From assembly GCA_951828515.1 (NCBI GenBank), contig OX639992.1, positions 3,016,217-3,080,216 of the forward strand: DNA of 64,000 nt, given 5' to 3'. The notes under the pieces were generated by a model. That model saw nothing but the letters and a program-made list of their open reading frames with translations. It searched no databases and was not told the origin of the DNA. This stretch comes from an uncultured Poribacteria bacterium (GTDB lineage Bacteria; Poribacteria; WGA-4E; WGA-3G). The number at the start of each line of letters is the position of its first letter. The first letter of the stretch is position 1. Position numbers and translations under genes: made by a program. Shown here in pieces: positions 6,464-64,000 of the stretch.

Positions 6464-7195
6464 CTATTTCCAGACATAAAACAGAAGAAAACTGAAGAAC
6501 TGTAGTGCTCCCATAAAGATGCCACACCGTATACCAGCAACACCGGCGTGTTGTTCCCTTGGAAAACCATCGGCTACTCCGAAAAAGTAAGGGCACAGCA
6601 GAAAAGTAACCAGAAAAGAAATCGGCACAAAAACCGGTACAGACGCAATGTCTGGTATCCGATCTACCTGTGTTGCATTCCACACCCACAGGTGCGATTC
6701 CCCAAGCGCGTAAATTATGTTACTTCCCACCGCCACACCGATGCCGGTGATGCCCGCCGCCAACATCGCAGTTCCCGTGAAACCCATTCTCGAATTGTCA
6801 GCCTCGGACGCAAAACGGGTTCGGAAAATCATCGCAAGCCGCTGGTAGCAGTATCCTGCCAGCGTCGCAAACACTATCCAGTTCAGGATGATTCCAATCG
6901 GTGTTGTTAGATCCGCTAAAAAATCTGGACGAAGATAGAAGACTAAGTGCGCTTTTCGCGAGAAAAGCCAGTCCATCGGAACGTATGTCAGTGTCGTTGC
7001 TATCCCAAAAATAAAGCTACTTAAAAGCAGCGATGTATCTTCATGAATCAGACGGATACAATAGACACACAAAACAACCGCAATGAGTATGTTCGGATAA
7101 AGTATCCAGATAGACCCAATGTGACTTGTTATTAAGAACGTTAAAAGCGTTGTCCCTGTTACAGTAAAAGCCGCTCTGTCCGCTTTGGTGCCCAT
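6464..7195 (-). CDS. polytopic membrane protein of unknown function
   Basis: A 243-residue, very hydrophobic protein with about seven predicted membrane spans (for example residues 12-30, 33-48, 57-75, 95-115, 140-165, 190-210 and 222-240). I recognise no family. The gene starts 5 nt after the ArsA-type ATPase stop, so the two are almost certainly co-transcribed and may work together, although nothing in the sequence marks it as a transporter for anions. The C-terminus ends in a hydrophobic stretch, FFSFLLFYVWK. Confidence 0.75.
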   Translation of the reverse strand: MGTKADRAAFTVTGTTLLTFLITSHIGSIWILYPNILIAVVLCVYCIRLIHEDTSLLLSSFIFGIATTLTYVPMDWLFSRKAHLVFYLRPDFLADLTTPIGIILNWIVFATLAGYCYQRLAMIFRTRFASEADNSRMGFTGTAMLAAGITGIGVAVGSNIIYALGESHLWVWNATQVDRIPDIASVPVFVPISFLVTFLLCPYFFGVADGFPREQHAGVAGIRCGIFMGALQFFSFLLFYVWK

Positions 7196-7200
7196 ACGCC

Positions 7201-8394
7201 TTAGGTCCGATATTCTCCCTCAAACTTAATTACAAGTTGGTCACCGGTGAGTTTCGCTCCAGTTGTTTTTTTGTTCGAGAGAGTCCGCGGCAATGCGATA
7301 TGTTGCTTGAAACCGCCTATGGTGACAATTAACTCATCACCGTGTTTTGTCAATCCAATTTCCTCTTTGCTCAGAAACGGGAGACGCATAGACAATTGAT
7401 AGACATCTCCTGTTTTTTGGAATAGATACGGACGTTCTTCAGAGAATTGATCCGCCGGATCAATCTCCGAATAGAGCGTGTCTGCTAACCGATGCAGCCC
7501 TCGTTCCCCCACAATTTCTTCTTCAAAGAGGTTCACCTTCCAAATCGGTACGTCCGAAAAATAATCCATTGCCTCCTCAATATAGTGCTGTTGGGAACGT
7601 TTCCAAGTTTCAAAATATGCCGCATCAACGCCATCAGGAAAGATACGATTGATAATTACAGCATCAATACATAACCCGTAAAGGCAAAAATACATAAATG
7701 CCCGCTGTGTCTCTTTGATAACAATTTTTTCTGGGTTCGTCACTAAGCGGACCGTCGTAATCTTCGGATCTATCAAGACACCATCAATCCCTTCCAATTT
7801 ATCGAATAAATCTTGGATATTCTGAAAATAATTGTCTCGTGGAATCGGGACGGAACTCACCCGTTCGATGACTGGACCCGCAACTCTCGCAAGGTTGCGC
7901 TCCAATTTGAAAATATGGCTCATGTACCACTCCAAGGTCGTCGGGATACTGACAAACCGGAGCGACTCGCCGGTCGGCGCACAATCAAGGATAATTACGT
8001 CATAACTTTTTTCGCGGATATATTGGTTGATATACAGAAGCGCGCAAATCTCTTCCATTCCCGGAAATACTGCTATCTCTTCAGCGACGAGGCTATCAAG
8101 CCCAGAACGATTGAGCAACGAACGGATATAACTATACACATCGTCCCAGTATTCAACTATTGCTTCCTGAACGTTAATCTCCTGTATCCAGAGGTTGTCT
8201 TTGATTTGAATCTGTTTCTCTTCACGCTGGCGAACGAGTTTTTCGTGGTTATCAAAAGCATCTCGGAGCGAATGTGCGACGTCAAGCGAAATCACGATGG
8301 TTTTGTAACCCAGTTCAGCGAGTTTGATACCCGTCGCAGCGGCAATTGTTGTTTTGCCGACACCCCCTTTGCCTGTGTAAAGAATAATTCGCAT
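7201..8394 (-). CDS. ArsA/Get3-family ATPase with C-terminal Hsp20-like domain
   Basis: A 397-residue P-loop ATPase. It begins with the deviant Walker A YTGKGGVGKTT at residues 6-16, followed by SLDVAHSLRDAF (switch I) and DVIILDCAPTGESLR (switch II / Walker B). The last ~75 residues (from about YQLSMRLPFLSKEE) match the Hsp20/alpha-crystallin-like domain found at the end of many bacterial ArsA homologues. It is a single-domain ATPase, unlike the duplicated ArsA of E. coli. There is no arsB, arsD or arsR nearby, so arsenite export is not supported. A Get3-like or membrane-protein-related role with the adjacent membrane protein is possible (inference). It is the first gene of the run down to hslU. 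Confidence 0.85.
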   Translation of the reverse strand: MRIILYTGKGGVGKTTIAAATGIKLAELGYKTIVISLDVAHSLRDAFDNHEKLVRQREEKQIQIKDNLWIQEINVQEAIVEYWDDVYSYIRSLLNRSGLDSLVAEEIAVFPGMEEICALLYINQYIREKSYDVIILDCAPTGESLRFVSIPTTLEWYMSHIFKLERNLARVAGPVIERVSSVPIPRDNYFQNIQDLFDKLEGIDGVLIDPKITTVRLVTNPEKIVIKETQRAFMYFCLYGLCIDAVIINRIFPDGVDAAYFETWKRSQQHYIEEAMDYFSDVPIWKVNLFEEEIVGERGLHRLADTLYSEIDPADQFSEERPYLFQKTGDVYQLSMRLPFLSKEEIGLTKHGDELIVTIGGFKQHIALPRTLSNKKTTGAKLTGDQLVIKFEGEYRT

Positions 8395-51468: not shown

Positions 51469-51903
51469 CTACGTGTGTCTCAGCTGCGATGGACAAATTT
51501 CATGATTGGGATCCCACCAGAGCAGGAAAGCCTCTGCTCCTGACCGAATTGCCCAAATCCGCTCCGTGTTGCTTAGACGAAATGAGACTAATTCCTCTTG
51601 ATCGTCGTGTCCGAGTTGTACTAATCGATTTTGTGCGGGTTCAATAAGGTCATTGATGGCTATCGCGTGGTGGTGTCGCCCTAATATCTCGCCCCAAGTC
51701 ATAGTTTCAAAGTTGCGCAATTTGTCCCATATATTCCTCAAAAAATCGGGACAAGTTATTTGGTTCCAACCCCATGGGCTATCGTCATCAATCTCTGCCA
51801 TTTTCCACACGAGCCTCCTATTTTGAGTGGACACTATAGGCAGAGATGTAGGGGCTTTCCTTGACTCCGGACTACGATTCCGGCGTACCCGTCTATTCTT
51901 CAT
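51469..51903 (-). CDS. hypothetical protein, third gene of the Panacea operon (candidate toxin or effector)
   Basis: A 144-residue protein whose last 100 residues follow a pattern I have seen in conserved hypotheticals: WDKLRNFETMTWGEIL, then LVSFRLSNTERIWAIRSG, and WWDPNHEICPSQLRHT at the end. It overlaps the Panacea gene by 11 nt, so translation is coupled. The true start may be the Met at 51801 (MAEIDDDSPWG). By analogy with Panacea (PanAT) pairs, a gene tied so closely to the antitoxin-type protein could be a toxin, but no catalytic motif is visible and this is inference. Confidence 0.7.
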   Translation of the reverse strand: MKNRRVRRNRSPESRKAPTSLPIVSTQNRRLVWKMAEIDDDSPWGWNQITCPDFLRNIWDKLRNFETMTWGEILGRHHHAIAINDLIEPAQNRLVQLGHDDQEELVSFRLSNTERIWAIRSGAEAFLLWWDPNHEICPSQLRHT

Positions 51904-52570
51904 CTTCGCTATTGTCCTCAGCTAGCAAGGAACTATAGTAATCTGCTATCGTGTCTAAAGGTATAACCCTGTTACCTCGTTCCAAAGGGAGTAGTCCTTT
52001 TCTCGCCTCAATCCAAGGATTTTCCATGTGGGTAAGTTCAATTAGCCATTGGGCAGACCTATGTCCATAATATTCGAGTACAGCGTCAACTGTGTCTTGC
52101 TGTTTCTGATTTAACAAGCGTGGATTGCCAAGCGGCATCGTTGATATTTCGTACATCCCGCGATGGTAATCAAACAGATCTCTGACGACGGGGCCATTTG
52201 CCCAAGCCTCGATATCTTCCTCAAATAACAGTTTTTCATCCCAAACCAACGACCACGCCTGACTATAGTATACCAATTTTTGGAGTTTCATGGTGGTCAT
52301 TGGTTTCATCTTCTGTAAAATATAAGCCGCAACGTCAAAGACCTGGATTCTCGGTGGTTCAGGGTCTGGATTCCGCTGTTCTTTCCAGTCTCCATCTTTC
52401 AACGGTTCAAAATTGGTGTCTTCACTAAACTCTAAATTAGAAGTGTTTACAACCTTTTCACTCGGACCCATACTTACACGGACAACAGCATCTTCTTTAG
52501 AGGTAATCGTGTTTTCGGAGAAAGTGCTTTCATCTTCAAGCGTTATGTTTGTGTCGTTCCATTTACTCAT
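51893..52570 (-). CDS. Panacea (DUF4065/SocA-like) domain protein
   Basis: A 225-residue protein. Residues ~75-195 are the Panacea domain: VFDVAAYILQKMKPMTTMKLQ, KLVYYSQAWSLVWDEKLLFEE and IEAWANGPVVRDLFDYHRGMY, the conserved core of SocA/GepA-like proteins. Panacea domains act as antitoxins for many unrelated toxins (PanAT systems) and are linked to proteolytic adaptors in SocA. An acidic ~70-residue N-terminal extension is unusual. The ATG overlaps the stop of the preceding gene by 4 nt, and its own end overlaps the next gene by 11 nt. Confidence 0.88.
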   Translation of the reverse strand: MSKWNDTNITLEDESTFSENTITSKEDAVVRVSMGPSEKVVNTSNLEFSEDTNFEPLKDGDWKEQRNPDPEPPRIQVFDVAAYILQKMKPMTTMKLQKLVYYSQAWSLVWDEKLLFEEDIEAWANGPVVRDLFDYHRGMYEISTMPLGNPRLLNQKQQDTVDAVLEYYGHRSAQWLIELTHMENPWIEARKGLLPLERGNRVIPLDTIADYYSSLLAEDNSEDEE

Positions 52571-53214
52571 TCGTTCTCTCCTTCCAACTCCAAACTATAG
52601 ATTTGTGTGATAAATTGTATTGCTTCCTCTTTCAATTCAAGTATCGAAGTTTCTGAGATTCCCGCCTTAAACCCAACTAAATTGCGAATATTAAAATGGA
52701 AATTGAGGTCAAAGGTGACCTTCTCGTCCTCGATTCTAATGGTGATGTTGAGGTTGCGTGCATTTAACACCAAATAGCGAGTATATTGCTCGCTGGTTAA
52801 TGATCCGCCAAACTGTTCAATTCTTTCTAAATCTTTTGGGCGTATTAGATTTATTAGATCTCCATTGACTTCATTTTCAGTAAAAAGGAAGTTGACACCG
52901 TATGCTGTAACTGGAGTATGTGGGAGATAGTCGGTAAGTTGTAAAGCAAGTTGTTGTATTCGGTCAAAATTTTCGTTTTTGTTTTCTACTGGATTGAAGT
53001 TTAGTCTATTCTCTTGGAATAGAATTTCAACTTCTTTCGACAATATTCGCGGAGAAACAAATTGTGCGTTGAAGCCCTGAGCAACCATCATATCTATTGT
53101 GAATTCTTCCTGTTCCCCCGGGAAAAGGTATCTCTTAATCCAATCTTGAGTAAATATATGTCTGTTCCAACCACCTACAATAACTAGTGCATTAGAGGAT
53201 TTGTCCAATTTCAT
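52567..53214 (-). CDS. hypothetical protein, first gene of the Panacea operon
   Basis: A 215-residue protein of mixed alpha/beta type. It starts SNALVIVGGWNRHIFTQDWI, has YLPHTPVTAYGVNFLFTE in the middle, and VTFDLNFHFNIRNL near the end. The VGGWN and LPHTPV-GVNF blocks suggest a conserved family I cannot name. It follows its own promoter (53359-53387) and a 138-nt leader with a TTGGGC/GCCCAA hairpin at 53239-53253. It overlaps the Panacea gene by ATGA, so the three proteins are likely made together. A sensor or adaptor role is a guess. Confidence 0.7.
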   Translation of the reverse strand: MKLDKSSNALVIVGGWNRHIFTQDWIKRYLFPGEQEEFTIDMMVAQGFNAQFVSPRILSKEVEILFQENRLNFNPVENKNENFDRIQQLALQLTDYLPHTPVTAYGVNFLFTENEVNGDLINLIRPKDLERIEQFGGSLTSEQYTRYLVLNARNLNITIRIEDEKVTFDLNFHFNIRNLVGFKAGISETSILELKEEAIQFITQIYSLELEGENE

Positions 53215-53442: not shown

Positions 53443-53742
53443 TTAAAGCGATCTCAAACGATCCTGCCTCTCCTCCCAATCCGGTAAATAGGCGGACATG
53501 AAACTCTTAAACAACTTACCGTGATTTGGCACAAGCAAATGCACCAATTCATGGACAATCACGTATTCCGTCAACGCTTCCGGTAGACTGAGGAGATCCG
53601 TATTAAGCGTCAAGCGTCCCTTCATTGATATAGATGCCCATTTTCGCTGCATGCTACGCAGATGAATTTCCTGCACTTTCACACCGATACGTTCTGCCCA
53701 CTGCTCTACTGTCCCTTTCAAATCCTCTCTATTGGCATTCAT
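53443..53742 (-). CDS. YgjP-like (DUF45) metallopeptidase
   Basis: A 99-residue protein with the zinc-peptidase motif VIVHELVHLLVPNHGKLF (HExxH plus a distal H) and the family pattern KWASISMKGRLTLNTDLLSLP. Many type I restriction operons carry such a gene directly after hsdR; its target is unknown. It overlaps the hsdR stop by ATGA, indicating the same transcript. The fold lacks a membrane span and is shorter than E. coli YgjP (~170 residues), representing mainly the catalytic part. Confidence 0.85.
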   Translation of the reverse strand: MNANREDLKGTVEQWAERIGVKVQEIHLRSMQRKWASISMKGRLTLNTDLLSLPEALTEYVIVHELVHLLVPNHGKLFKSFMSAYLPDWEERQDRLRSL

Positions 53743-56612
53743 ACGCGCTCCAACCGCAACAATTTATTTGTTGTTTCAATGAGTTCTTTCGCGCCAACGG
53801 TAGGTCTTAATGTTTTATAGAGCATCGCCCTCAACTCTTTTTCTTCTTGGTCATTCCACCGATAATCGGGAAATTGCACAAACACCTGATCAACGGCTCG
53901 CGCCTGCTCGGGATTAATATCGTCTATAACATTTCTGAGAACCGTATGGACCGCAAATGTGTTCTCATCCATGCCAAGTTGTTCGCTTTCTCTTGCAGCA
54001 AGTACGCATTCCTCGGCTAATCTCAGAAGTTCAGTCAATATATCTTGTGTCACCATTTGGCGACTTTCATAAGCTTCTGTGACCGCTTCCGCTCGATCAC
54101 CAATCGAAATGAGGAAAGGCTTTGATTTGCTTTCGTCTGCCACTGTTCGATGCAGTGCTTTCTGCAAATTCAGCACCTTGACCGTATCGGATGCCTCGCT
54201 CTGATCCACTGTTTGTAAAGTATCTGTCCCTAATTCATAAACGGCATCCGGCAATTCAAACAAATGACTTTCTGTATGCGTCTGTAAAAGTTCCCGCGTT
54301 TTGGCAGTTAACTCCTTATCAACGTAGGTACGGTCAGCATAGGCGTTACGAATTAGTCCATAGAGGGTTGCCAACGCCTGATAATCCGCTATAAACGGAC
54401 GTAAGAAGGGGTCCGGTGAAAGGATGTCATAGAGATTTTGCAACCCCTTGAAGAACTTGAAGAAAGTTTCTCGATCATCTTTGTCCTCAAAATGCTCAAT
54501 GGCTCGTTCTTTCGCCTTATCGTCCCAGCCGGTAGCAAAGGGTAAATACGCCGCTGCGTCCTCGCGCATTCGTTTGGCGAAATTGTCTTTGAGAACGTCA
54601 ATATTGCGAATCACACTCGCCACTTCGTCAGAATCGAATGCCAATGCCTTTTCGAGATTGTCAAAAATACCGACAAAATCCAAGACGAAACCAGCAGGTT
54701 TTACCAGTCCATCTTCGTCCTCGTAGGGACGGTTGACACGGGCAATCGCCTGTAACAACACGTGATCCCGCATCGGTTTATCGAGATACATGCAGTAGAG
54801 GATCGGTGCATCAAAGCCTGTCAACAACTTCTGGGTTACAATCAATATCTTTGGTTGCTCATTCCTATTGACGAATTTTTTGCGGATCTCTTTCTCCTCG
54901 TTTGAGGCGCGGTGATACGCTTTCATAAACGCAGCATCTTGATTGTTTTCAGAATAGACCACTTCTGAATACTCTGGCGGTAGATATTTATCCAATGCCT
55001 GCTTATAAAGCGCACACGTCTCTCGGTCAACAGCCACCAGAAATGCCTTGAACCCCATCGGCTCTACAGTCTCACGGAAGTGTTGGGCAACATACCTCGC
55101 AATGCCGTCTATCCTTTCCGGTGCCTTCATCATCGCTTTCAGATTAACTGCTCGATCAAGAATCGCGTTGAGTTCCTCCAGATCACTCATTCCCTCCGTC
55201 ATCGCGAGGTTTAGAAATTCTCGTTCCAACGTCTCGCGATCAACCTGTAAATCAGAGGAGGCAAGCGCGTAATTCAACGGCACAGTCGTGCCGTCTTCAA
55301 TGGATTCCACAATTGCGTATTTATCAAGATACCCCTGATCATCATCTACCCCAAACACCTTAAACGTACCTTCACCTTTGGAAAGCCTGTCAATCGGGGT
55401 ACCTGTAAAGCCGATATAGGTTGCATTGGGGAGAGCTGCCATCAGGTAGTTCCCAAAATCGCCGCCGGTTGTGCGGTGTGCTTCGTCAATCAGAACGACA
55501 ACGCTTTCACGGTCGTTAAGGTTCGCAGGTCTCTTGTCAAACTTATGAATCATGGACACGATCAAACCGCGATAATCGGAGGATAGAATTTCTTCCAAGT
55601 CATCCTTATTCTGTGCGACTCGGGGTGTGGTAATGCCATAACCAGTAATATTTCTAAAGAGCTGACTTTCCAGTTCATTCCGATCAACGACCATCAGCAC
55701 AGTAGGTTTTTCTATCTGTTCTGCTCCGCGTAGGAGACGCGCCGCAATCGTTATCATGGTGAGGGTTTTGCCGCTGCCTTGTGTGTGCCAGACAAGCCCA
55801 CGTCGCTTGTTTGAATCGTGAACCCGTTCAATCACCTTCTCTACTGCACGCGTCTGGTGTTGACGTAACACAATTTTGGTGAGTTGGTCGTCTTTACTCT
55901 GGAAGATAATCGACTGTTGCAGGACCTTCAAAAGGCGGTCTCGGTCAAAAAAGGTCTTAACCTTCTGCTCGTAGTTGGTGGGTTCGTCGGTTTTCCAATT
56001 GAACAGGTTTTTGCGGCTGGTGTTCCATGTCACGCCGTAGAAAAAGTCAAGGAGTTGTGTGACACCGAAGAGTTGTGTGGTCGTGAACATTTCCGGCGTT
56101 TCATTGTGGTAGCGACGGATTTGATCTACACCGAGTGCTAACCCGTCTGGTTTCCCGGCGTTCTTTGCCTCCACTATTGCCACGGGAATCCCGTTAATCA
56201 GGAACACCACATCGGCGCGATTGCGCTGGGCTGCGTTTTGCTGTTCCCATTCATCGGTGACGTGAAACAAGTTATTGTCGGGGTTTTCAAAGTCAATCAG
56301 GGTGACATTACGCTCGCGGTTCTCACTGGCAACAAAAGTTGACCTCTCACCGCGTATCCAAAGAAGTGCGTCCTGATTTCCTTCAAGTGTCGCAGTGAGC
56401 AAACCGAGCTGCCGCATCACGTCTGCGCAGCTGGCATCGTCTATGACTCCCTTATTAAGTTTCAAGAGTTGCGCTTTCAGCACATCAGCAAAATAAAGCG
56501 AGGCGGTATCACCACCACGCATTTGCATGGCTTCTGATGGTGAAATAGCCTGCCAACCAATTTCATCAGCGTATTTGAGCATTGGCTCTTGTACTGCGGA
56601 ACGTTCAGACAT
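53739..56612 (-). CDS. hsdR: type I restriction enzyme R subunit
   Basis: The motor and nuclease subunit of a type I restriction-modification complex. It is 957 residues from the ATG at 56612 (an in-frame TTG 12 nt upstream is possible). The N-terminal nuclease site is RADVVFLINGIPVAIVEAKN (D~134, E-A-K ~148-150). The translocase follows: Walker A HTQGSGKTLTM (~277-283), DEAH-type VVLIDEAHRTTGG, YIGFTGTPI and the C-lobe ILIVTQKLLTGFDAP and RVNRPY. It translocates DNA and cleaves unmodified DNA far from the recognition site. The C-terminal helical region that docks on HsdM is present. All catalytic motifs look intact. Confidence 0.95.
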   Translation of the reverse strand: MSERSAVQEPMLKYADEIGWQAISPSEAMQMRGGDTASLYFADVLKAQLLKLNKGVIDDASCADVMRQLGLLTATLEGNQDALLWIRGERSTFVASENRERNVTLIDFENPDNNLFHVTDEWEQQNAAQRNRADVVFLINGIPVAIVEAKNAGKPDGLALGVDQIRRYHNETPEMFTTTQLFGVTQLLDFFYGVTWNTSRKNLFNWKTDEPTNYEQKVKTFFDRDRLLKVLQQSIIFQSKDDQLTKIVLRQHQTRAVEKVIERVHDSNKRRGLVWHTQGSGKTLTMITIAARLLRGAEQIEKPTVLMVVDRNELESQLFRNITGYGITTPRVAQNKDDLEEILSSDYRGLIVSMIHKFDKRPANLNDRESVVVLIDEAHRTTGGDFGNYLMAALPNATYIGFTGTPIDRLSKGEGTFKVFGVDDDQGYLDKYAIVESIEDGTTVPLNYALASSDLQVDRETLEREFLNLAMTEGMSDLEELNAILDRAVNLKAMMKAPERIDGIARYVAQHFRETVEPMGFKAFLVAVDRETCALYKQALDKYLPPEYSEVVYSENNQDAAFMKAYHRASNEEKEIRKKFVNRNEQPKILIVTQKLLTGFDAPILYCMYLDKPMRDHVLLQAIARVNRPYEDEDGLVKPAGFVLDFVGIFDNLEKALAFDSDEVASVIRNIDVLKDNFAKRMREDAAAYLPFATGWDDKAKERAIEHFEDKDDRETFFKFFKGLQNLYDILSPDPFLRPFIADYQALATLYGLIRNAYADRTYVDKELTAKTRELLQTHTESHLFELPDAVYELGTDTLQTVDQSEASDTVKVLNLQKALHRTVADESKSKPFLISIGDRAEAVTEAYESRQMVTQDILTELLRLAEECVLAARESEQLGMDENTFAVHTVLRNVIDDINPEQARAVDQVFVQFPDYRWNDQEEKELRAMLYKTLRPTVGAKELIETTNKLLRLERV

Positions 56613-56664
56613 AACCGACCCCAAATTAAGAAAGTAACCAAAATCATCAAGAAGGATGGATGAT

Positions 56665-56925
56665 TTACCTAAAAATTCGTTCTATACCTTCAAGACAGTC
56701 TGGTAATACTTTAAATATATGCCAAGCACTAAAAATACTGACCCCATGGTGACTACCGAATTTGAATGCTTTAATATCTTCTAATAGGGTTGGGGTTACT
56801 TCCAGCAGGCTGAAAATCAGAAGGGCAATACCAGCAGCAAGGTTGAGAAATGGATCTTCAGTTAATGGTCTTAGGTACGTTTTTATTTTTATAGCTAATG
56901 GTCTTAGGTGCTCTTTTATTTTCAT
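56665..56925 (-). CDS. small membrane protein in the restriction operon
   Basis: An 86-residue protein with a single hydrophobic segment (LNLAAGIALLIFSLLEV, residues ~27-43) and charged ends. It has the Shine-Dalgarno AAAGGAG 9 nt before its ATG and short gaps to hsdS (18 nt) and hsdR (52 nt), so it is a real operon member. The first 20 residues contain a small internal repeat, KEHLRPLAIKIKTYLRPL. I recognise no family. A membrane-linked accessory to the defence system is possible, but this is inference. Confidence 0.65.
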   Translation of the reverse strand: MKIKEHLRPLAIKIKTYLRPLTEDPFLNLAAGIALLIFSLLEVTPTLLEDIKAFKFGSHHGVSIFSAWHIFKVLPDCLEGIERIFR

Positions 56926-56943: not shown

Positions 56944-58197
56944 TTAGTTAACAAACGTTGTCGATTTAGTATCAATCGACGACACAGCAGACCTTTGCCC
57001 CGTCATTAGTTCCTCAAGCATAGCGTGGAATAGTTCGTCCAGATGTTGTACTTCTTGTTCAAGGGCGGCTGTTTTTTCGTCAATTGCTTGAAAAACATTG
57101 GCAATGGCATGTTGCTCGGAAAGTGGCGGGAGTGCAAGGGTAAATTTTCCCAAAGAATCCCACGATGTCCTTGGGTGGCTTATTCCTGTTGATGTTGCTA
57201 TGGCATGATTCACAAACGCTTCGGTATGTAGAAGATAGACTAAAAATCTTGGAGTTGTTTTTAAGTTTGGGATGAATACAAGAATATCGGTTGAGCAAAT
57301 TCCTTCCATTTCAGCAATAACTGTTTTATTCAGATAAGCACGCAATTTACCATATAAAACATCATCGGGAAAAAAATGATTTTTCGCACTTTTCATCGCC
57401 GAAGCATCACCCCAACGTTTCAGAATGCTTTCTCCTGAGTCAATATGTTCAAGTCCTACAAAATTTAGATTCTGATTATCTTCAGGTTTTACATTCTCAC
57501 GCCTTAAATTCGCTATCTCTTTGAGTTGCATAACCTCCCAACTTTCAGGAATCTCGCCAATTTCCGTCTGCTTACGGGACTCACCCTTCGTGCCGTGTGA
57601 AAAGAGGTTATCCATCAATGCCGCTTTGCGTTCGCGCTCTAACGCAATCTCGCGTTGACGAGTGGATTTTGCTTCTTGAATTGTTTGTAAGATATGGGCA
57701 ATGGCGCGTTGTTCGGGAAGTAGGGGAAGTGGAATTGTAGTGTTTTTTACTGTAGTAGCAGTAATAGCAGGAAGCGGTCCCGGATTTGAAAGGTCTGATA
57801 AATCAATAAATTCAAACCAGTACAACAAATAATAAGGCGTACATAAATCATAGTCCCGAATCGTTACTCCCATTACGTTGTTATCCACTAAACTCTCAAT
57901 AGATAACATTCGCTTTTTATTCGTATGAACAGCAGCACCCACCTTTGGGAAAATTACTGTATCCTTTGGAAATGATTTTGCCTTGAGTGTTTTAACTGTC
58001 TCTTCCTCTACCCAATTGTTTGAGGCACACATTACAGTTTCATTACCAGTTAGATTCATATCTGAAACTTTGTAAAAAGGATATTTTCCTTCAATACTCC
58101 CTTGATACGCTATTGGGAACGCTGATCCTGCACGAATGTTAGCAATTTCCTCTAATCGAATGGTTTTCCAATGCTCCCGGAAATTCATTTCACACAT
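56944..58197 (-). CDS. hsdS: type I restriction enzyme S (specificity) subunit
   Basis: A 417-residue protein with two target-recognition domains separated by coiled coils: TRD1 ~10-170 (HWKTIRLEEIANIRAG) and TRD2 ~200-370 (ESWEVMQLKEIANLRRE). Each ends in a typical spacer (LPLLPEQRAIAHILQTI and LPPLSEQHAIANVFQAI) followed by a helix. It determines the DNA sequence that HsdM methylates. The ATG at 58197 has GGAGG 6 nt upstream and overlaps the NTPase gene by 8 nt; MNFREHW at 58188 is an alternative. TRD1 and TRD2 differ, so the recognised site is probably bipartite and asymmetric. Confidence 0.93.
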   Translation of the reverse strand: MCEMNFREHWKTIRLEEIANIRAGSAFPIAYQGSIEGKYPFYKVSDMNLTGNETVMCASNNWVEEETVKTLKAKSFPKDTVIFPKVGAAVHTNKKRMLSIESLVDNNVMGVTIRDYDLCTPYYLLYWFEFIDLSDLSNPGPLPAITATTVKNTTIPLPLLPEQRAIAHILQTIQEAKSTRQREIALERERKAALMDNLFSHGTKGESRKQTEIGEIPESWEVMQLKEIANLRRENVKPEDNQNLNFVGLEHIDSGESILKRWGDASAMKSAKNHFFPDDVLYGKLRAYLNKTVIAEMEGICSTDILVFIPNLKTTPRFLVYLLHTEAFVNHAIATSTGISHPRTSWDSLGKFTLALPPLSEQHAIANVFQAIDEKTAALEQEVQHLDELFHAMLEELMTGQRSAVSSIDTKSTTFVN

Positions 58198-61100
58198 TAC
58201 GAGCCTCCTGATGCTTTTGGATGTCGCGATATGTCTTAACTTCCTGAAAATTCTTATACGGATCATCAGGATTTTCAGATACTAAACGTCGGTTTCCCCA
58301 GATTACCCAAATTAGTTCTCCACCTATCTTTGCTAAATAACGTTCCAGTAAATCTTCTCGTAGATATGTAAAATCTTGCTTGTCTTTCCATTCCTCGCCA
58401 TAGCAAAAAGTTATTGACGCACGCTTGCCATCTTTTTCAAACAGATCAAAACTCTGAGGTTGTCCATGTAAATTAAAGGTTTCTGCAATCTGCCGAATTG
58501 GAATTGCAACACTACGACTGGGAACGGCTGCACTACTGGAATCCGACCAGTGGTTTTCCCTTACCGGAACTAACATCTCAAATTCTTGATGTTCTGGCTG
58601 TTCAACATTGACCGTTTCCGTTGTCAACTCAAAGCCTCGCTTGTACAACTGTGCTTCAATCATTTGCCAATTTCTTGTTTCAATTGGATTCGTAATACTG
58701 TTTATACCATAGAACCCTAATAATTTGGCAAAAGGATCTTCTGGTTCAATCAGATCCACGATACTATCCCAGAATGATTGCAATTCTTCTTCGGATACAG
58801 GTTCACCATCGCGTAGAATGATTTGCTGTTCTTCGGGAACTAAAACCGTTCCTATTTTAAATGACATCTCTTCCCAACTATTATCTGGATATGTATCACA
58901 CCACGGTATTTCTCCTGCGTATGTGTAACCATCTTCTGGGCAATACGGTAAGGTATTCCTATCTATTTTCTCCTGCTTTTTCAATACCTCAACAATTTCC
59001 TCAACCTCTTCGGATTTTACAATTAATCCTTGCAAAAAGGAAAACATCTCACGATTGACTTGATTGTCTTTCTGACTCAGGAATCCATTCAACAGAACCC
59101 ATGTTCCTTTTTCAACACAGGGACCATCAATTTTCAAATACTTAGTCATATCTGGATGTGGGGTCTTGGATACCCACTGTTGGGTAGTAACTTCTCGGTT
59201 TCCTAATAAATCTTCCGTGACTAAATTGTACTCACGGTGTTCATCGGGAAAACTTGGATCAATATCTGTATATAAAGTACGTGAATTATTATAATAATCT
59301 GGTAGTAGGTTATTGTCTTGTCGAAATCCAGAAAGTTCATAAAACGCAATCCAAGAGTATTTTTTGCCGTATCGATCTGTTTTCCTCCCATCTGCTGATC
59401 GACCATATTTCCTATAATTTTCTTCACCAAGTTCGCGATCGATCTTTCCAAAAGTGTCCGATGAATACCCCAAATTGTATATCCGCCAGTAAACGTTCTT
59501 TTTAACACGCTTATATTCATCAGGAGCAGAATCATCAATTTTTGTTAAGCTTTTAAGTGTGTAATCCCTAAAATCCATTTGGACTGGAGGAGGACCTTCC
59601 TCCTTATTTTCACATTCACCCCACTCCCGAATCCCACCATCTGTAAATGGCGGGGTGATGCGTTCATGCTCATCATCTGTTAGCAAATTAGGATGATGTA
59701 TCAAAGCGATGTCAATTGTTCGTTTCGCATAATTGCGGGCTAAGGTGTGTGTTGTTGAATGTGGAGCGTTAAGTTTGAACATATTTTCGTACAAGTGTCT
59801 TGCATATAAGGGTAACACCTCTCTTACGAAACTGGTATCCTCAAAATCGTTTTGCCGTGCCATTGCGATGCCATAAGTTGCAGCCAGCATCCGCTCAGGA
59901 ACATAAGGATCGTTAATTGTGAAAGATTTTATGACTAAATCAAAAAATGCTTGAGGGAAACGTCGTCCGTACCAGTAAAGTGCGCGTGTTGCTTGATCGC
60001 GCAGAGGTCTGACTGTTGATGTAAGAATCCACATAATGTACTCTGCCATAAGATGCAGACGTTCTTTGCCAATATCAGACAATTCCTGAGCACTTTGGCA
60101 AGTTTCCTCAAAGCGTGTCACTGTCTCTTCCAGACTATGACGGTTATGTCGGACATATTCTGTCCAACTTAGGTCTCGTTCCGACATAGACAATGCCAAA
60201 AGTCGTTCTGACCAGAATGAGGCGTTGAATGGATGGTTCGGATGTCCAACGGTAGTTTCTGCTAACTTAAAGAATGATGCCCTGTTCTCAGGCATCCCAA
60301 AGAGATGGCTGACTGGGTCGATACATTTTTCGTTTATATTTCTTGGGGAAATTTCAAACAATGCACGAATTGATAAACCGAATGCCTCTCGATTATCCGA
60401 AAGTTCGTGAAGAAATTGACCAATCTTGACAGGGAGCAGTGCTGCCAAACATCTACCGATGTCTTCGGACATCGGATGTGCGGTTTTGGGACCCCAAAGA
60501 CTGGACAAAAGCCGACGAATCTTGACGGGAAAAAGGGCAACCAAACATTTTCTGATGTTACTTAGAAGTGGATGCGAGTTACGAGATTCTTTCCGAAATA
60601 AATTTGATATAGTGCGGCGTAAATGACTTTGCCTACGCTTGGCAGCCTGTTGCACCAAGTATTGTGCTATTAAATAACCGCCGAGTAGGTCATAGGTAAA
60701 AGACATTGTATCTTTATCTCCTATCCAATCTCGACGAACTAATAAACCCTCAGCTTCTATCGCGCGAGTCGTTGATGAAGGCCACCATTTCGGTTCTTTA
60801 AGGGATTTACCATCTACAAGTCGTACTAATTCTTCAAGAGGAATATAGCGACTGCGATGTTGCCACAAGTATTCTGCGATCTTATTTAAGGCAGGTTGTA
60901 TTACAGATGTTCCGGAACGGAATTCAAGACGTTTGCATACCTCCTTGTTGCATTGCTCCAAATATTCATCAAAAACTTCAAAAAGCGTCTGCTCGCCTAC
61001 ATAAACTTGCACCTCAGTCTTGCGTTCACGATTTTTAGTTTCACAGAAAATCTTGAGGTAGATGGGATGTTCAAACTGCGCTAATGGTGCCCCCGTAAGA

Positions 61101-62722
61101 TCAGCTTTAATCTTGTATGCGTTGAAGTACTTTTCAACTGCAGGCTCCAACTCCTCGTATTGATCAAAACCGTAAGCATAAACCAAATTTAGTAAATCTT
61201 TATCTTTCCAAATTATCTTTCCCGGAATGATATCTTCTCGTGAACTGACTTCTTTCCAAATAGACTCTTCATAACTCTTGCGGCATGTTGTAATTAATAC
61301 AAGGTTCTTTGTCCGTGAAATCTCTTGAACGAGTCTTTTTAGCCCCAATTCCCATATATTTGAAAAAGTACCATTATGTACCGATTCATTAATCCCGTCA
61401 ATTATCAACGGGATACGGGTCTGGTACGCTTCGGCAGCTGCTGAGAGTGCTTGCAAAAATTCGTGCCAACTACGTGCCGGTGGAATGTCAAAAAGATCTC
61501 GCAACTGAACTTCAATCACTTGATTGGTCCTAAATTGACTTCCACGAACAAATAGGGCAGGTAATCCGTTTTTCAGTCGGTCGTCACAGATATTGCAGGC
61601 GATATGGGTTTTACCAATTCCGGCATCCCCAAGGATATGTAGATCTGACTCGTTGATAAGGCAGTGTTGCCAGATTACAGACGGGAAAAATTTATCCAAT
61701 AAGTTGGCAACCAAAGAATCTGGATGATGAACAACCCCTCTTGCATAACGTAAAGCTTGTTCTTCATATTCCTTTTCAACAGTGCATTCCATCTTTGATG
61801 TGCCAGATTCCCACCCAATTTTTCTGTAGGCATCAAAGGCTTTGTAAAGTTGATTAAGTGCTGATTTCCAATCTATGGACTGCGCTTCAGAGAGTTTTTT
61901 TTCTATTAAAAGATCTCTTGCTTGTTTCAACTGGGCTTTCATGTTCACTAAGGCTTCTTGAAGTGATTTAGCTGCCTTGATGACCTTAGACTTTTCTTTT
62001 TCGTTCCACTCAATATATGGAATTGGAGAATTGAGTTTGTTAATTGCTTCCTTTAAATCGGAGAGTTCTCCCTCAAGTTTTTCAATCCAATTGGTAATTT
62101 GGTGCACGAATGCTTCATCGCCTAAAAGCGCGTGAATGTCACCATCCACGTTAGTTTCGGTATGCAAAGACGAATCAAATTTATCACCTACACCAGCCAT
62201 CTGCTTGGTAAACTGTCGCTGAAACGAGTTTATATCAAGTTCAAATTCATTGAAGAAATAATGTAATTTCCCTCTGAAATCTGGATTGCTCAACCAATCG
62301 TTGAATTCACTATCTCCCCAGTGTTCAATCTCAATATCCTCTGAAATGGATTGGCGAAGTGTATTATCAAACCATTTCTGTTCATCTGGCGTAAAATTAG
62401 TAGGGATACACAAAAACCATTTTTTCAAATGCGGATGTATTTCGCATGCTCTTTTAAGTGAATTAGTGATGGATCGTTTCCGACCACTTTTGTTGAGGCG
62501 CGGTTCAGGATAGTAAAACTTAGCTTGCCACCCCCACTGATCGCCGTTCGGTAAAGTTAGGTAAAATTCGACACCATCACCGCCTCCACTATCGTCTATG
62601 GAAGTAAATCGTCCCATTTCTCCATAAAGTCCCTTGGCAATCTGATAGCACAGTTCTTCAAAACTTCGGTATTTATCATTTTGATATGGTTTGAGTTTCG
62701 ACCAATCTATCATTGTCTTCAT
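58190..62722 (-). CDS. STAND-type NTPase with N-terminal PD-(D/E)XK nuclease-like domain (Avs-like)
   Basis: A 1510-residue protein. Residues ~15-165 resemble a restriction-endonuclease fold: YRSFEELCYQIAKGLYGE, then DDSGGGDGVEF (D49, E52) and WGWQAK (K68). After a coiled-coil linker (~210-300) comes a P-loop NTPase: Walker A ILGDAGIGKTH (363-373) and Walker B IPLIIDGINES (437-447). The C-terminal ~1000 residues have no motif I can name and would be the sensor or scaffold part. This layout fits antiviral STAND (Avs) proteins, in which ligand binding activates an N-terminal nuclease (known for the family). The start overlaps the hsdM stop by 4 nt (ATGA) and the end overlaps hsdS. No frameshift is seen. 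Confidence 0.85.
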   Translation of the reverse strand: MKTMIDWSKLKPYQNDKYRSFEELCYQIAKGLYGEMGRFTSIDDSGGGDGVEFYLTLPNGDQWGWQAKFYYPEPRLNKSGRKRSITNSLKRACEIHPHLKKWFLCIPTNFTPDEQKWFDNTLRQSISEDIEIEHWGDSEFNDWLSNPDFRGKLHYFFNEFELDINSFQRQFTKQMAGVGDKFDSSLHTETNVDGDIHALLGDEAFVHQITNWIEKLEGELSDLKEAINKLNSPIPYIEWNEKEKSKVIKAAKSLQEALVNMKAQLKQARDLLIEKKLSEAQSIDWKSALNQLYKAFDAYRKIGWESGTSKMECTVEKEYEEQALRYARGVVHHPDSLVANLLDKFFPSVIWQHCLINESDLHILGDAGIGKTHIACNICDDRLKNGLPALFVRGSQFRTNQVIEVQLRDLFDIPPARSWHEFLQALSAAAEAYQTRIPLIIDGINESVHNGTFSNIWELGLKRLVQEISRTKNLVLITTCRKSYEESIWKEVSSREDIIPGKIIWKDKDLLNLVYAYGFDQYEELEPAVEKYFNAYKIKADLTGAPLAQFEHPIYLKIFCETKNRERKTEVQVYVGEQTLFEVFDEYLEQCNKEVCKRLEFRSGTSVIQPALNKIAEYLWQHRSRYIPLEELVRLVDGKSLKEPKWWPSSTTRAIEAEGLLVRRDWIGDKDTMSFTYDLLGGYLIAQYLVQQAAKRRQSHLRRTISNLFRKESRNSHPLLSNIRKCLVALFPVKIRRLLSSLWGPKTAHPMSEDIGRCLAALLPVKIGQFLHELSDNREAFGLSIRALFEISPRNINEKCIDPVSHLFGMPENRASFFKLAETTVGHPNHPFNASFWSERLLALSMSERDLSWTEYVRHNRHSLEETVTRFEETCQSAQELSDIGKERLHLMAEYIMWILTSTVRPLRDQATRALYWYGRRFPQAFFDLVIKSFTINDPYVPERMLAATYGIAMARQNDFEDTSFVREVLPLYARHLYENMFKLNAPHSTTHTLARNYAKRTIDIALIHHPNLLTDDEHERITPPFTDGGIREWGECENKEEGPPPVQMDFRDYTLKSLTKIDDSAPDEYKRVKKNVYWRIYNLGYSSDTFGKIDRELGEENYRKYGRSADGRKTDRYGKKYSWIAFYELSGFRQDNNLLPDYYNNSRTLYTDIDPSFPDEHREYNLVTEDLLGNREVTTQQWVSKTPHPDMTKYLKIDGPCVEKGTWVLLNGFLSQKDNQVNREMFSFLQGLIVKSEEVEEIVEVLKKQEKIDRNTLPYCPEDGYTYAGEIPWCDTYPDNSWEEMSFKIGTVLVPEEQQIILRDGEPVSEEELQSFWDSIVDLIEPEDPFAKLLGFYGINSITNPIETRNWQMIEAQLYKRGFELTTETVNVEQPEHQEFEMLVPVRENHWSDSSSAAVPSRSVAIPIRQIAETFNLHGQPQSFDLFEKDGKRASITFCYGEEWKDKQDFTYLREDLLERYLAKIGGELIWVIWGNRRLVSENPDDPYKNFQEVKTYRDIQKHQEARNV

Positions 62723-64000
62723 TTCTCCGTATTCAGTTTAAGCCGTGCCAACACATCTTCCAATGTCTTATCCGCTTTTTCGCGGGCGATGCGTGCTTCC
62801 GTTAAGTCTGCCAAAATCTCATTCACCGGGCGGTGTTCAACCTTGTCGCCTACGTCCACAAACTGGGAAGGACTCAGGTTGTAATCGGTTTTTTGGGCAT
62901 CTTCCAATGTGATAACAGTGCTCAACTTCTCACGGGACTCCCACGCTTGATAGGCTTCCGTCGCAGCATCAGTCCCCTTATCGGTGAGGATGTTTTTCGG
63001 TTTCCCCTTCTCGAAATGCTGAGAGAGGTTGATAAGTAGGATCTGCTCTTTGCGTTCCTCTGGTTTGTTGCGGTTCAATAGTAAAATAATGCCCGGCGCA
63101 CTTGTGTTGTAAAACAGGTTGTCAGGTAGCAGTATCACACTTTCAATCAGATCTTCCTCAACGAACTTTTTGCGGATATCGCGTTCTCGGTCGTTGTTCT
63201 TGCTCCCAGAACCGCGAGAGACCGCGCCGGTATCCAGCACAATCGCAGCACGACCGTTGTGTTTTAAGGACGCAAGGATATGCTGCACCCATCCCCAATC
63301 GGCTGAGGAACCCGGTGCGATCCCGTAAGTAAACCTGTGCCAATTGTCGCTCTCGTAAAAAGGGTCGTTATACTCCTTCTGATTCCACATCGGATTGGCG
63401 AGTACATAATCAAATCGTTTCAGCGATGAGTTGTTCGCAACAAAACGAGGGTTGCGGAAGGTGTCTCCGATCTGCACATCTGCACCGATGAAATCGTGCA
63501 GAAAAGCGTTCATTTTCGCCATGGCATAGGTGGTGGGAGTCAATTCCTGTCCGTATATTTGGGGTGCTTGGCTTTTGTCGTCTGGATGCGTCTGTTCAAA
63601 CAGCAGACGGGGTTTGATAAGCAGACCGCCTGAACCGCACGCTGGATCGTAAATAGTGGTGTAGGGTTCAGGGTGAATCAGTTTTGCCATTAACCACCCG
63701 ACCTCTTTTGGTGTGTAGAACTCGCCCGCGCTCTGTCCCTGTCCCTCAGCGAATTTTCGTAAAAGATACTCGTACGCACGACCGAGGATATCTGGCTCTG
63801 TGTCTTGCAGTCCAAGTCGATGTCGGCTTAGCACTTCAATTAACGCCTCAAGACGTTCCTCGTCGAGCGTCCGTTGTCCACTCTGGCTTTCGTTGAAATC
63901 CTTAACATCAAGGACACCTTGCAGTAATGGATTCAGACGGGCAACCTCGCGCATCGCATCGGTAACAAACTCTCCCAGATGACCATCGGCAGGATGGTTG
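62719..64000 (-). CDS. hsdM: type I restriction enzyme M (methyltransferase) subunit, 5' end outside window
   Basis: The frame is open to the window edge (the codons before Met 63954 read HLGEFVTDA in frame), so the N-terminus is missing. Seen: LGRAYEYLLRKFAEGQGQSAGEFYTPKEVGWLM, YDPACGSGGLLI (AdoMet-binding motif I), DYVLANPMWNQ (motif IV; NPMW in place of NPPF/Y), and a C-terminal helix pair with LADLTEARIAREKADKTLEDV. It methylates adenine in the DNA site set by HsdS. It is followed at once by the STAND gene, with a 4-nt overlap. Confidence 0.94.
   Translation of the reverse strand, partial: NHPADGHLGEFVTDAMREVARLNPLLQGVLDVKDFNESQSGQRTLDEERLEALIEVLSRHRLGLQDTEPDILGRAYEYLLRKFAEGQGQSAGEFYTPKEVGWLMAKLIHPEPYTTIYDPACGSGGLLIKPRLLFEQTHPDDKSQAPQIYGQELTPTTYAMAKMNAFLHDFIGADVQIGDTFRNPRFVANNSSLKRFDYVLANPMWNQKEYNDPFYESDNWHRFTYGIAPGSSADWGWVQHILASLKHNGRAAIVLDTGAVSRGSGSKNNDRERDIRKKFVEEDLIESVILLPDNLFYNTSAPGIILLLNRNKPEERKEQILLINLSQHFEKGKPKNILTDKGTDAATEAYQAWESREKLSTVITLEDAQKTDYNLSPSQFVDVGDKVEHRPVNEILADLTEARIAREKADKTLEDVLARLKLNTEK

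Follow-up and report, generated by a model that had tools for sequence, protein, structure and literature searches.

Does an antiviral STAND gene that lies inside a type I restriction-modification (R-M) operon work with the restriction enzyme, or is it an independent defence that shares the operon? The question is raised by one end of the window, the whole stretch of 64,000 nucleotides from an uncultured Poribacteria bacterium that was analysed here. In the original prediction, restriction enzyme and NTPase were thought to act as one system.

Layout of the operon and its junctions

On the minus strand, the ORF list and Pfam matches give the order hsdM, a 1510-codon ORF, hsdS, an ORF of 86 residues, hsdR, and a ygjP-like gene at the window end. 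The features, in window coordinates, are the following:

62719..64000, minus strand: hsdM, type I N6-adenine methyltransferase, 3' part (Pfam N6_Mtase E 8e-93; PADLOC MTase_I E 9e-143)
58190..62722, minus strand: avs2-like gene, 1510 codons (PADLOC Avs2 E 4.7e-167; NCBIfam Avs2 E 2e-105; PDB 9o4e)
62288..62722, minus strand: predicted N-terminal nuclease domain, residues 1–145 (Avs4 profile match, model, conservation)
61604..61630, minus strand: Walker A, residues 365–373, GDAGIGKTH (conserved in the alignment of relatives)
61385..61417, minus strand: Walker B, residues 436–446, IPLIIDGINES (conserved in the alignment of relatives)
58193..60385, minus strand: C-terminal alpha-solenoid, putative sensor, residues 780–1510 (structure model, 9o4e homology)
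56944..58197, minus strand: hsdS, specificity subunit (Pfam Methylase_S, two stretches, E 1.4e-32)
56665..56925, minus strand: 86-aa ORF between hsdS and hsdR (ORF list)
53739..56624, minus strand: hsdR, SWI2/SNF2 motor and HSDR_N nuclease domain (Pfam SWI2_SNF2 E 1e-63, HSDR_N E 8e-29)
53443..53742, minus strand: YgjP-like metallopeptidase gene (Pfam YgjP-like E 3e-32)

The nesting of a 1510-codon ORF between hsdM and hsdS is thus borne out in coordinates, length and order, with hsdR lying beyond the interval that the original prediction covered. The contig bearing the operon is a single 5.85 Mb sequence. The hsdM gene, cut by the window, runs on to G000:C1:3080566 (whole gene 543 aa in L009), so that the operon has complete hsdM, hsdS, and hsdR genes in one orientation, enclosing an unrelated defence gene. 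The 86-residue ORF has no Pfam match and no relative among the related loci searched.

Regarding the junctions, avs2 overlaps hsdS by 8 nt (ATGTGTGA), with the hsdS start at 58197 being an in-frame methionine, M24 when counted from the start of the longest ORF at 58266. The predicted overlap of 4 nt with hsdM holds only from the first ATG of avs2 (62722), since the start in relatives is MIDW (residue 4, 62713), and the same start here would leave a gap of 5 nt. Whichever start is used, hsdM and avs2 abut, and the tight coupling proposed for the three genes stands. The ygjP-like gene, which comes after hsdR in most relatives, overlaps the end of hsdR by 4 nt. A promoter scan returned the same counts as in shuffled sequences.

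After ygjP, window positions 51469–53214 hold a 215-aa ORF, a SocA/Panacea ORF, and a 144-aa ORF, whose order is kept in L051, L059, L089, and L095. These ORFs are possibly a toxin–antitoxin set.

Domain composition of the nested protein

Pfam alone gives only a weak NACHT/nSTAND3 match in the nested protein, whose ORF is intact. Among the PADLOC profiles, the best match is Avs2 (PDLC02164), beginning at residue 3, and the profile comparison with the solved Avs2 (PDB 9o4e) gives an E value of 1.6e-136. The match to the NCBIfam Avs2 model (NF041813) scores 353.8 bits, under the equivalog cut-off of 1000 bits, and the protein is therefore filed as Avs2-like, a divergent relative rather than a strict equivalog. 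Neither this assignment nor the nesting is due to chance, given profile E values of 1e-136 and below and a gene order that recurs elsewhere.

The STAND body and the solenoid align with Avs2 (AVAST type 2; 9o4e; NF041813) over about 1100 residues, and homology to 9o4e reaches approximately residue 1300. The model shows the solenoid as helical repeats, confidently only up to approximately residue 1025, with low pLDDT beyond, and the mostly low-confidence model of the sensor half gave no significant Foldseek match (best E 0.015). An insertion at residues 700–745 (about 60490–60625), with an apparent internal near-repeat (CLVALFPVKI/CLAALLPVKI), is also present in G039 and absent from G005, G018, and G053.

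Pfam gives no match in the first 170 residues. However, a profile of 12 N-terminal sequences matches the N-terminus of Avs4 (8dgf_A) with an E value of 6.4e-9, and Foldseek with the model of the N-terminal half ranks Avs4 first (E 7.5e-6), followed by weak matches to EndoMS, Cap4, FokI, and EcoO109I. The N-terminal model itself is modest (mean pLDDT 55; mostly 70–84 at residues 81–140, and lower at approximately 41–50 and 71–80), with a PD-(D/E)XK-like order of alpha-beta-beta-beta-alpha-beta. Across the 12 aligned N-termini, E22, E52, Q66, and K68 are invariant. Among the nuclease residues originally named, E52, Q66, and K68 are thereby retained, whereas D49 is not conserved and was rejected as the catalytic acid. 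A PD-(D/E)XK nuclease domain is thus predicted at the N-terminus from sequence and model, in agreement with the nuclease core proposed for this region. The assignment to the Avs family as a nuclease plus STAND protein is likewise upheld by the Avs2 profile matches, the conserved Walker motifs, and the Avs4-type N-terminus.

The nested protein is therefore made of an Avs2-like body and an Avs4-like effector domain. It differs from known Avs2 proteins in being only about 22–29% identical to plasmid-borne relatives, in an N-terminal domain that matches Avs4 (9o4e is unmatched there by sequence), and in the location of its gene within an hsd operon. With Avs4 (8dgf), it shares the N-terminal nuclease domain and the overall fold of the N-terminal half, whereas its body and sensor match Avs2, and not Avs4, by sequence.

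Recurrence of avs2 and cargo exchange between hsdM and hsdS

The gene order is not unique to this contig, as was checked in related genomes. Close relatives of avs2 (about 55–83% identical) occupy the same locus within the same family (Candidatus Poribacteria, two genera), with the shared order hsdM-(cargo)-avs2-hsdS-(cargo)-hsdR-ygjP. Outside the window, avs2 is found immediately upstream of hsdS in G005, G010, G011, G016, G018, G027, G053, and G050/G056, which makes nine loci when G050 and G056 are counted apart, though both carry one identical avs2 sequence. Most related genomes are fragmented MAGs; the pieces of G027 lie on separate contigs, as do those of G010, and hsdM is on another contig in G010, G011, and G016. 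An assembly artefact was nevertheless rejected, since the order recurs in independent genomes. A TAATG stop-start junction between avs2 and hsdS is common to most relatives read, and every locus of this Avs2 clade sits at hsd or bears apparent hsd scars.

Some copies are damaged: avs2 is broken by stops and an insert in G050/G056, carries a frameshift in G027, and lacks the first 114 residues in G016, where it lies beside a transposase gene. The others are open where sequenced, except for stops at the contig edge in G010. Purifying selection on avs2 is indicated by pairwise dN/dS values of 0.19–0.28. In G010, the contig with avs2 also holds, about 1.8 kb upstream of the gene, a caspase-like peptidase ORF (L047:5175-6323; Pfam Peptidase_C14 E 1e-15; PADLOC caspase).

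An hsdM of this type is found in 26 of the 59 family genomes. In 18 loci, the whole interval from hsdM to hsdS is found on a single contig; here G050/G056 counts as one locus, and two G053 contigs start within hsdM. Five of the 18 hold avs2, and 13 hold other genes. This other cargo includes DUF5615 with a PIN-TPR-GreABC protein, of 1468 aa or, in a short form, 477 aa; a set of C5 cytosine methylase, Mrr_cat, and GHKL-ATPase genes (the last a type II REase by PADLOC); and CoiA-like and DUF2806 genes, among others. In L041 and L049, avs2 occurs together with PIN-TPR and the C5 methylase. The pair of 1468-aa PIN-TPR-GreABC and DUF5615 recurs in the slot in L041:5099-9864, L093, L099, L101, L105, and L108, and the short form, present in several genomes, lacks most of the TPR/PIN part.

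The two G053 contigs have a common hsdM 3' part (95% over 697 bp) and carry avs2 and PIN-TPR, respectively, and in G027 a relic of the hsdM 3' end directly precedes avs2. Monophyly of genus 1 is rejected by the avs2 tree (AU p 4e-6), where G011 avs2 groups with genus 3, and monophyly of genus 3 is not rejected by the hsdM tree (p 0.25). At the level of identity, G011 avs2 is 80% identical to that of G053, from the other genus, and 63–66% identical to those of six of its seven own genus mates. Because cargo varies and the avs2 tree rejects the monophyly of genus 1, the cargo of this slot is exchanged; as judged from these sequences, avs2 has been exchanged between genera, and the exchange probably proceeded through recombination within the hsd genes on either side. 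A strict coevolution of the avs2 and hsdM genes was rejected, the correlation being only partial (Spearman 0.47, Mantel p 0.027).

These exchanges could reflect hitchhiking only, with the hsd locus being a recombination hotspot through its shared hsdM/hsdS flanks, and the position of avs2 meaning nothing for function except that the site is safe, mobile, and transcribed. The relic in G027 and the paired G053 contigs fit such a model, as do the broken avs2 copies of G050/G056 and G016, and the unrelated nature of the cargo types. However, much of the cargo that can be typed resembles defence genes, and both the coupling and the orientation within the operon are preserved, pointing to selection for co-expression. 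Pure hitchhiking, which is hard to separate from a role of avs2 as autonomous cargo, is thus regarded as unlikely. The favoured explanation, held to be probable, is that of an autonomous Avs2-type antiviral STAND protein, co-expressed as exchangeable operon cargo in a layered defence.

Outside the phylum, none of 18 Avs2 relatives (nine plasmid records and nine genomes of other phyla) lies between hsdM and hsdS. Four of the 18 are near type I R-M genes. Both counts were obtained with Poribacterial Hsd proteins as queries, by which divergent hsd genes may have been missed. In L158 and L159 the Avs2 relative immediately follows hsdR in the same orientation, in L137 the type I genes are convergent with it, and in L139 they are on the opposite strand. 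The link between Avs2 and type I R-M may therefore recur outside the phylum, although defence islands cluster anyway. The tight nesting in Poribacteria, together with the clade-wide hsd placement or scars, is more than loose clustering, and counts against the cargo explanation.

Other observations concern these distant relatives. In L134, L135, L140, and L144 (about 6600–8000), from plasmids of Picosynechococcus, Deinococcus, Vibrio, and Synechococcus, radical-SAM and DUF6375 genes directly precede the Avs2-like gene, in an order common to all four; the three genes may form a defence operon. A scan of viral contigs yielded two distant Avs2 relatives, one of them a 1518-codon gene, 23% identical, on IMGVR_UViG_2651869751_000002 (L146:5920-10476).

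Relation of Avs2 to the restriction enzyme

Type I operons that enclose defence genes are already known. TgvAB are independent anti-phage genes within the type I R-M cluster of V. cholerae VPI-2, active without hsdR (PMC11411939); the embedding is the same, although TgvAB are type IV modification-dependent restriction genes and not a STAND sensor. In the RRDM island of EPEC, a type I operon encloses DarTG2, and the authors of that study call the site a potential recombination hotspot (PMC12255303). As presumed for avs2, it is an abortive-type defence, but it lies between hsdS and hsdR, and is a toxin–antitoxin system with a dedicated repressor, RptR. As for Avs genes nested in hsd operons, no report was found in the open-access literature searched, although a preprint by Payne et al. 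on embedded defences may hold cases; nor did that literature hold a description of interchangeable cargo in an hsdM–hsdS slot across a phylum whose members are uncultured symbionts of sponges.

A third precedent bears directly on whether the two activities are joined. PrrC, an anticodon nuclease embedded in the EcoprrI type IC operon, is silenced by the R-M complex (PMC3874165, PMC2610378). By the same logic, described for that operon (PMC3874165), the Hsd complex would hold Avs2 inactive and release it in response to a phage that blocks or escapes the restriction enzyme. Like PrrC, avs2 would be a lethal effector gene embedded in a type I operon, the coupling of avs2 to hsdS is conserved, and avs2 is nested in every non-deleted locus of the clade. 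Nevertheless, PrrC is a HEPN/ABC protein, whereas the nested protein is of the STAND and PD-(D/E)XK type, and avs2 persists without hsdS/hsdR. In G019, which has lost hsdS and hsdR, avs2 reads open (to the contig edge) and leads into hsdS codons 1–8, which are fused to about codon 51 of ygjP. In G039, whose contig begins 235 bases before the avs2 ORF, avs2 is open and its stop is followed by sequence resembling an hsdS start; no relative of this hsdM or hsdR was found in the genome at E 1e-100. Both solo cases are terminal branches from MAG data, and their avs2 dN/dS matches that of the other copies. A protein silenced by Hsd should be toxic or lost under these circumstances. Moreover, most hsd loci lack avs2, the gene is exchanged across genera, and Avs proteins already carry their own sensor (PMC12931631), so that a PrrC-like arrangement appears quite unlikely.

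Since avs2 occurs without hsdS/hsdR in G019 and G039, and 13 hsd loci occur without avs2, the two are separable both ways; this is the chief point against a machine in which both are obligatory partners. The original idea of one system is not supported, given the variable slot, with other cargo in most loci, the exchange of avs2 between genera, and the open avs2 of G019 and G039; two independent layers can still give a back-up effect. Least probable is that the Avs2 of this clade has become part of the type I enzyme, as a subunit, or stands guard on it, monitoring the integrity of HsdM/HsdS or anti-restriction proteins in addition to a phage protein. If this improbable model were true, restriction and a pattern-recognition receptor would form one two-stage immune complex.

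In the favoured model of autonomous cargo, Avs2, with its predicted Avs4-like PD-(D/E)XK nuclease domain, STAND NTPase, and alpha-solenoid sensor, would ride in the hsdM–hsdS slot as an exchangeable passenger. The characterised Avs1–4 proteins recognise the terminase or portal proteins of phages and cleave DNA (PMC12931631). By analogy, we infer a phage trigger and nuclease activity for Avs2: on binding a conserved protein of the phage, for example the large terminase, it would assemble and cleave the DNA of both phage and host. Embedding would give avs2 shared expression, through presumed co-transcription, and shared transfer with the R-M genes. The benefit would be layered, with restriction of unmethylated DNA at entry, and Avs2 acting later if the phage escapes.

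Under this model, Avs2 would be an NLR-like receptor carried as cargo of a type I operon. The slot would offer a compact way to find candidate defence genes, such as the PIN-TPR-GreABC/DUF5615 pair or the C5 methylase-GHKL-Mrr set, and the loci with and without hsdS/hsdR would serve as natural comparisons on whether embedding means cooperation.
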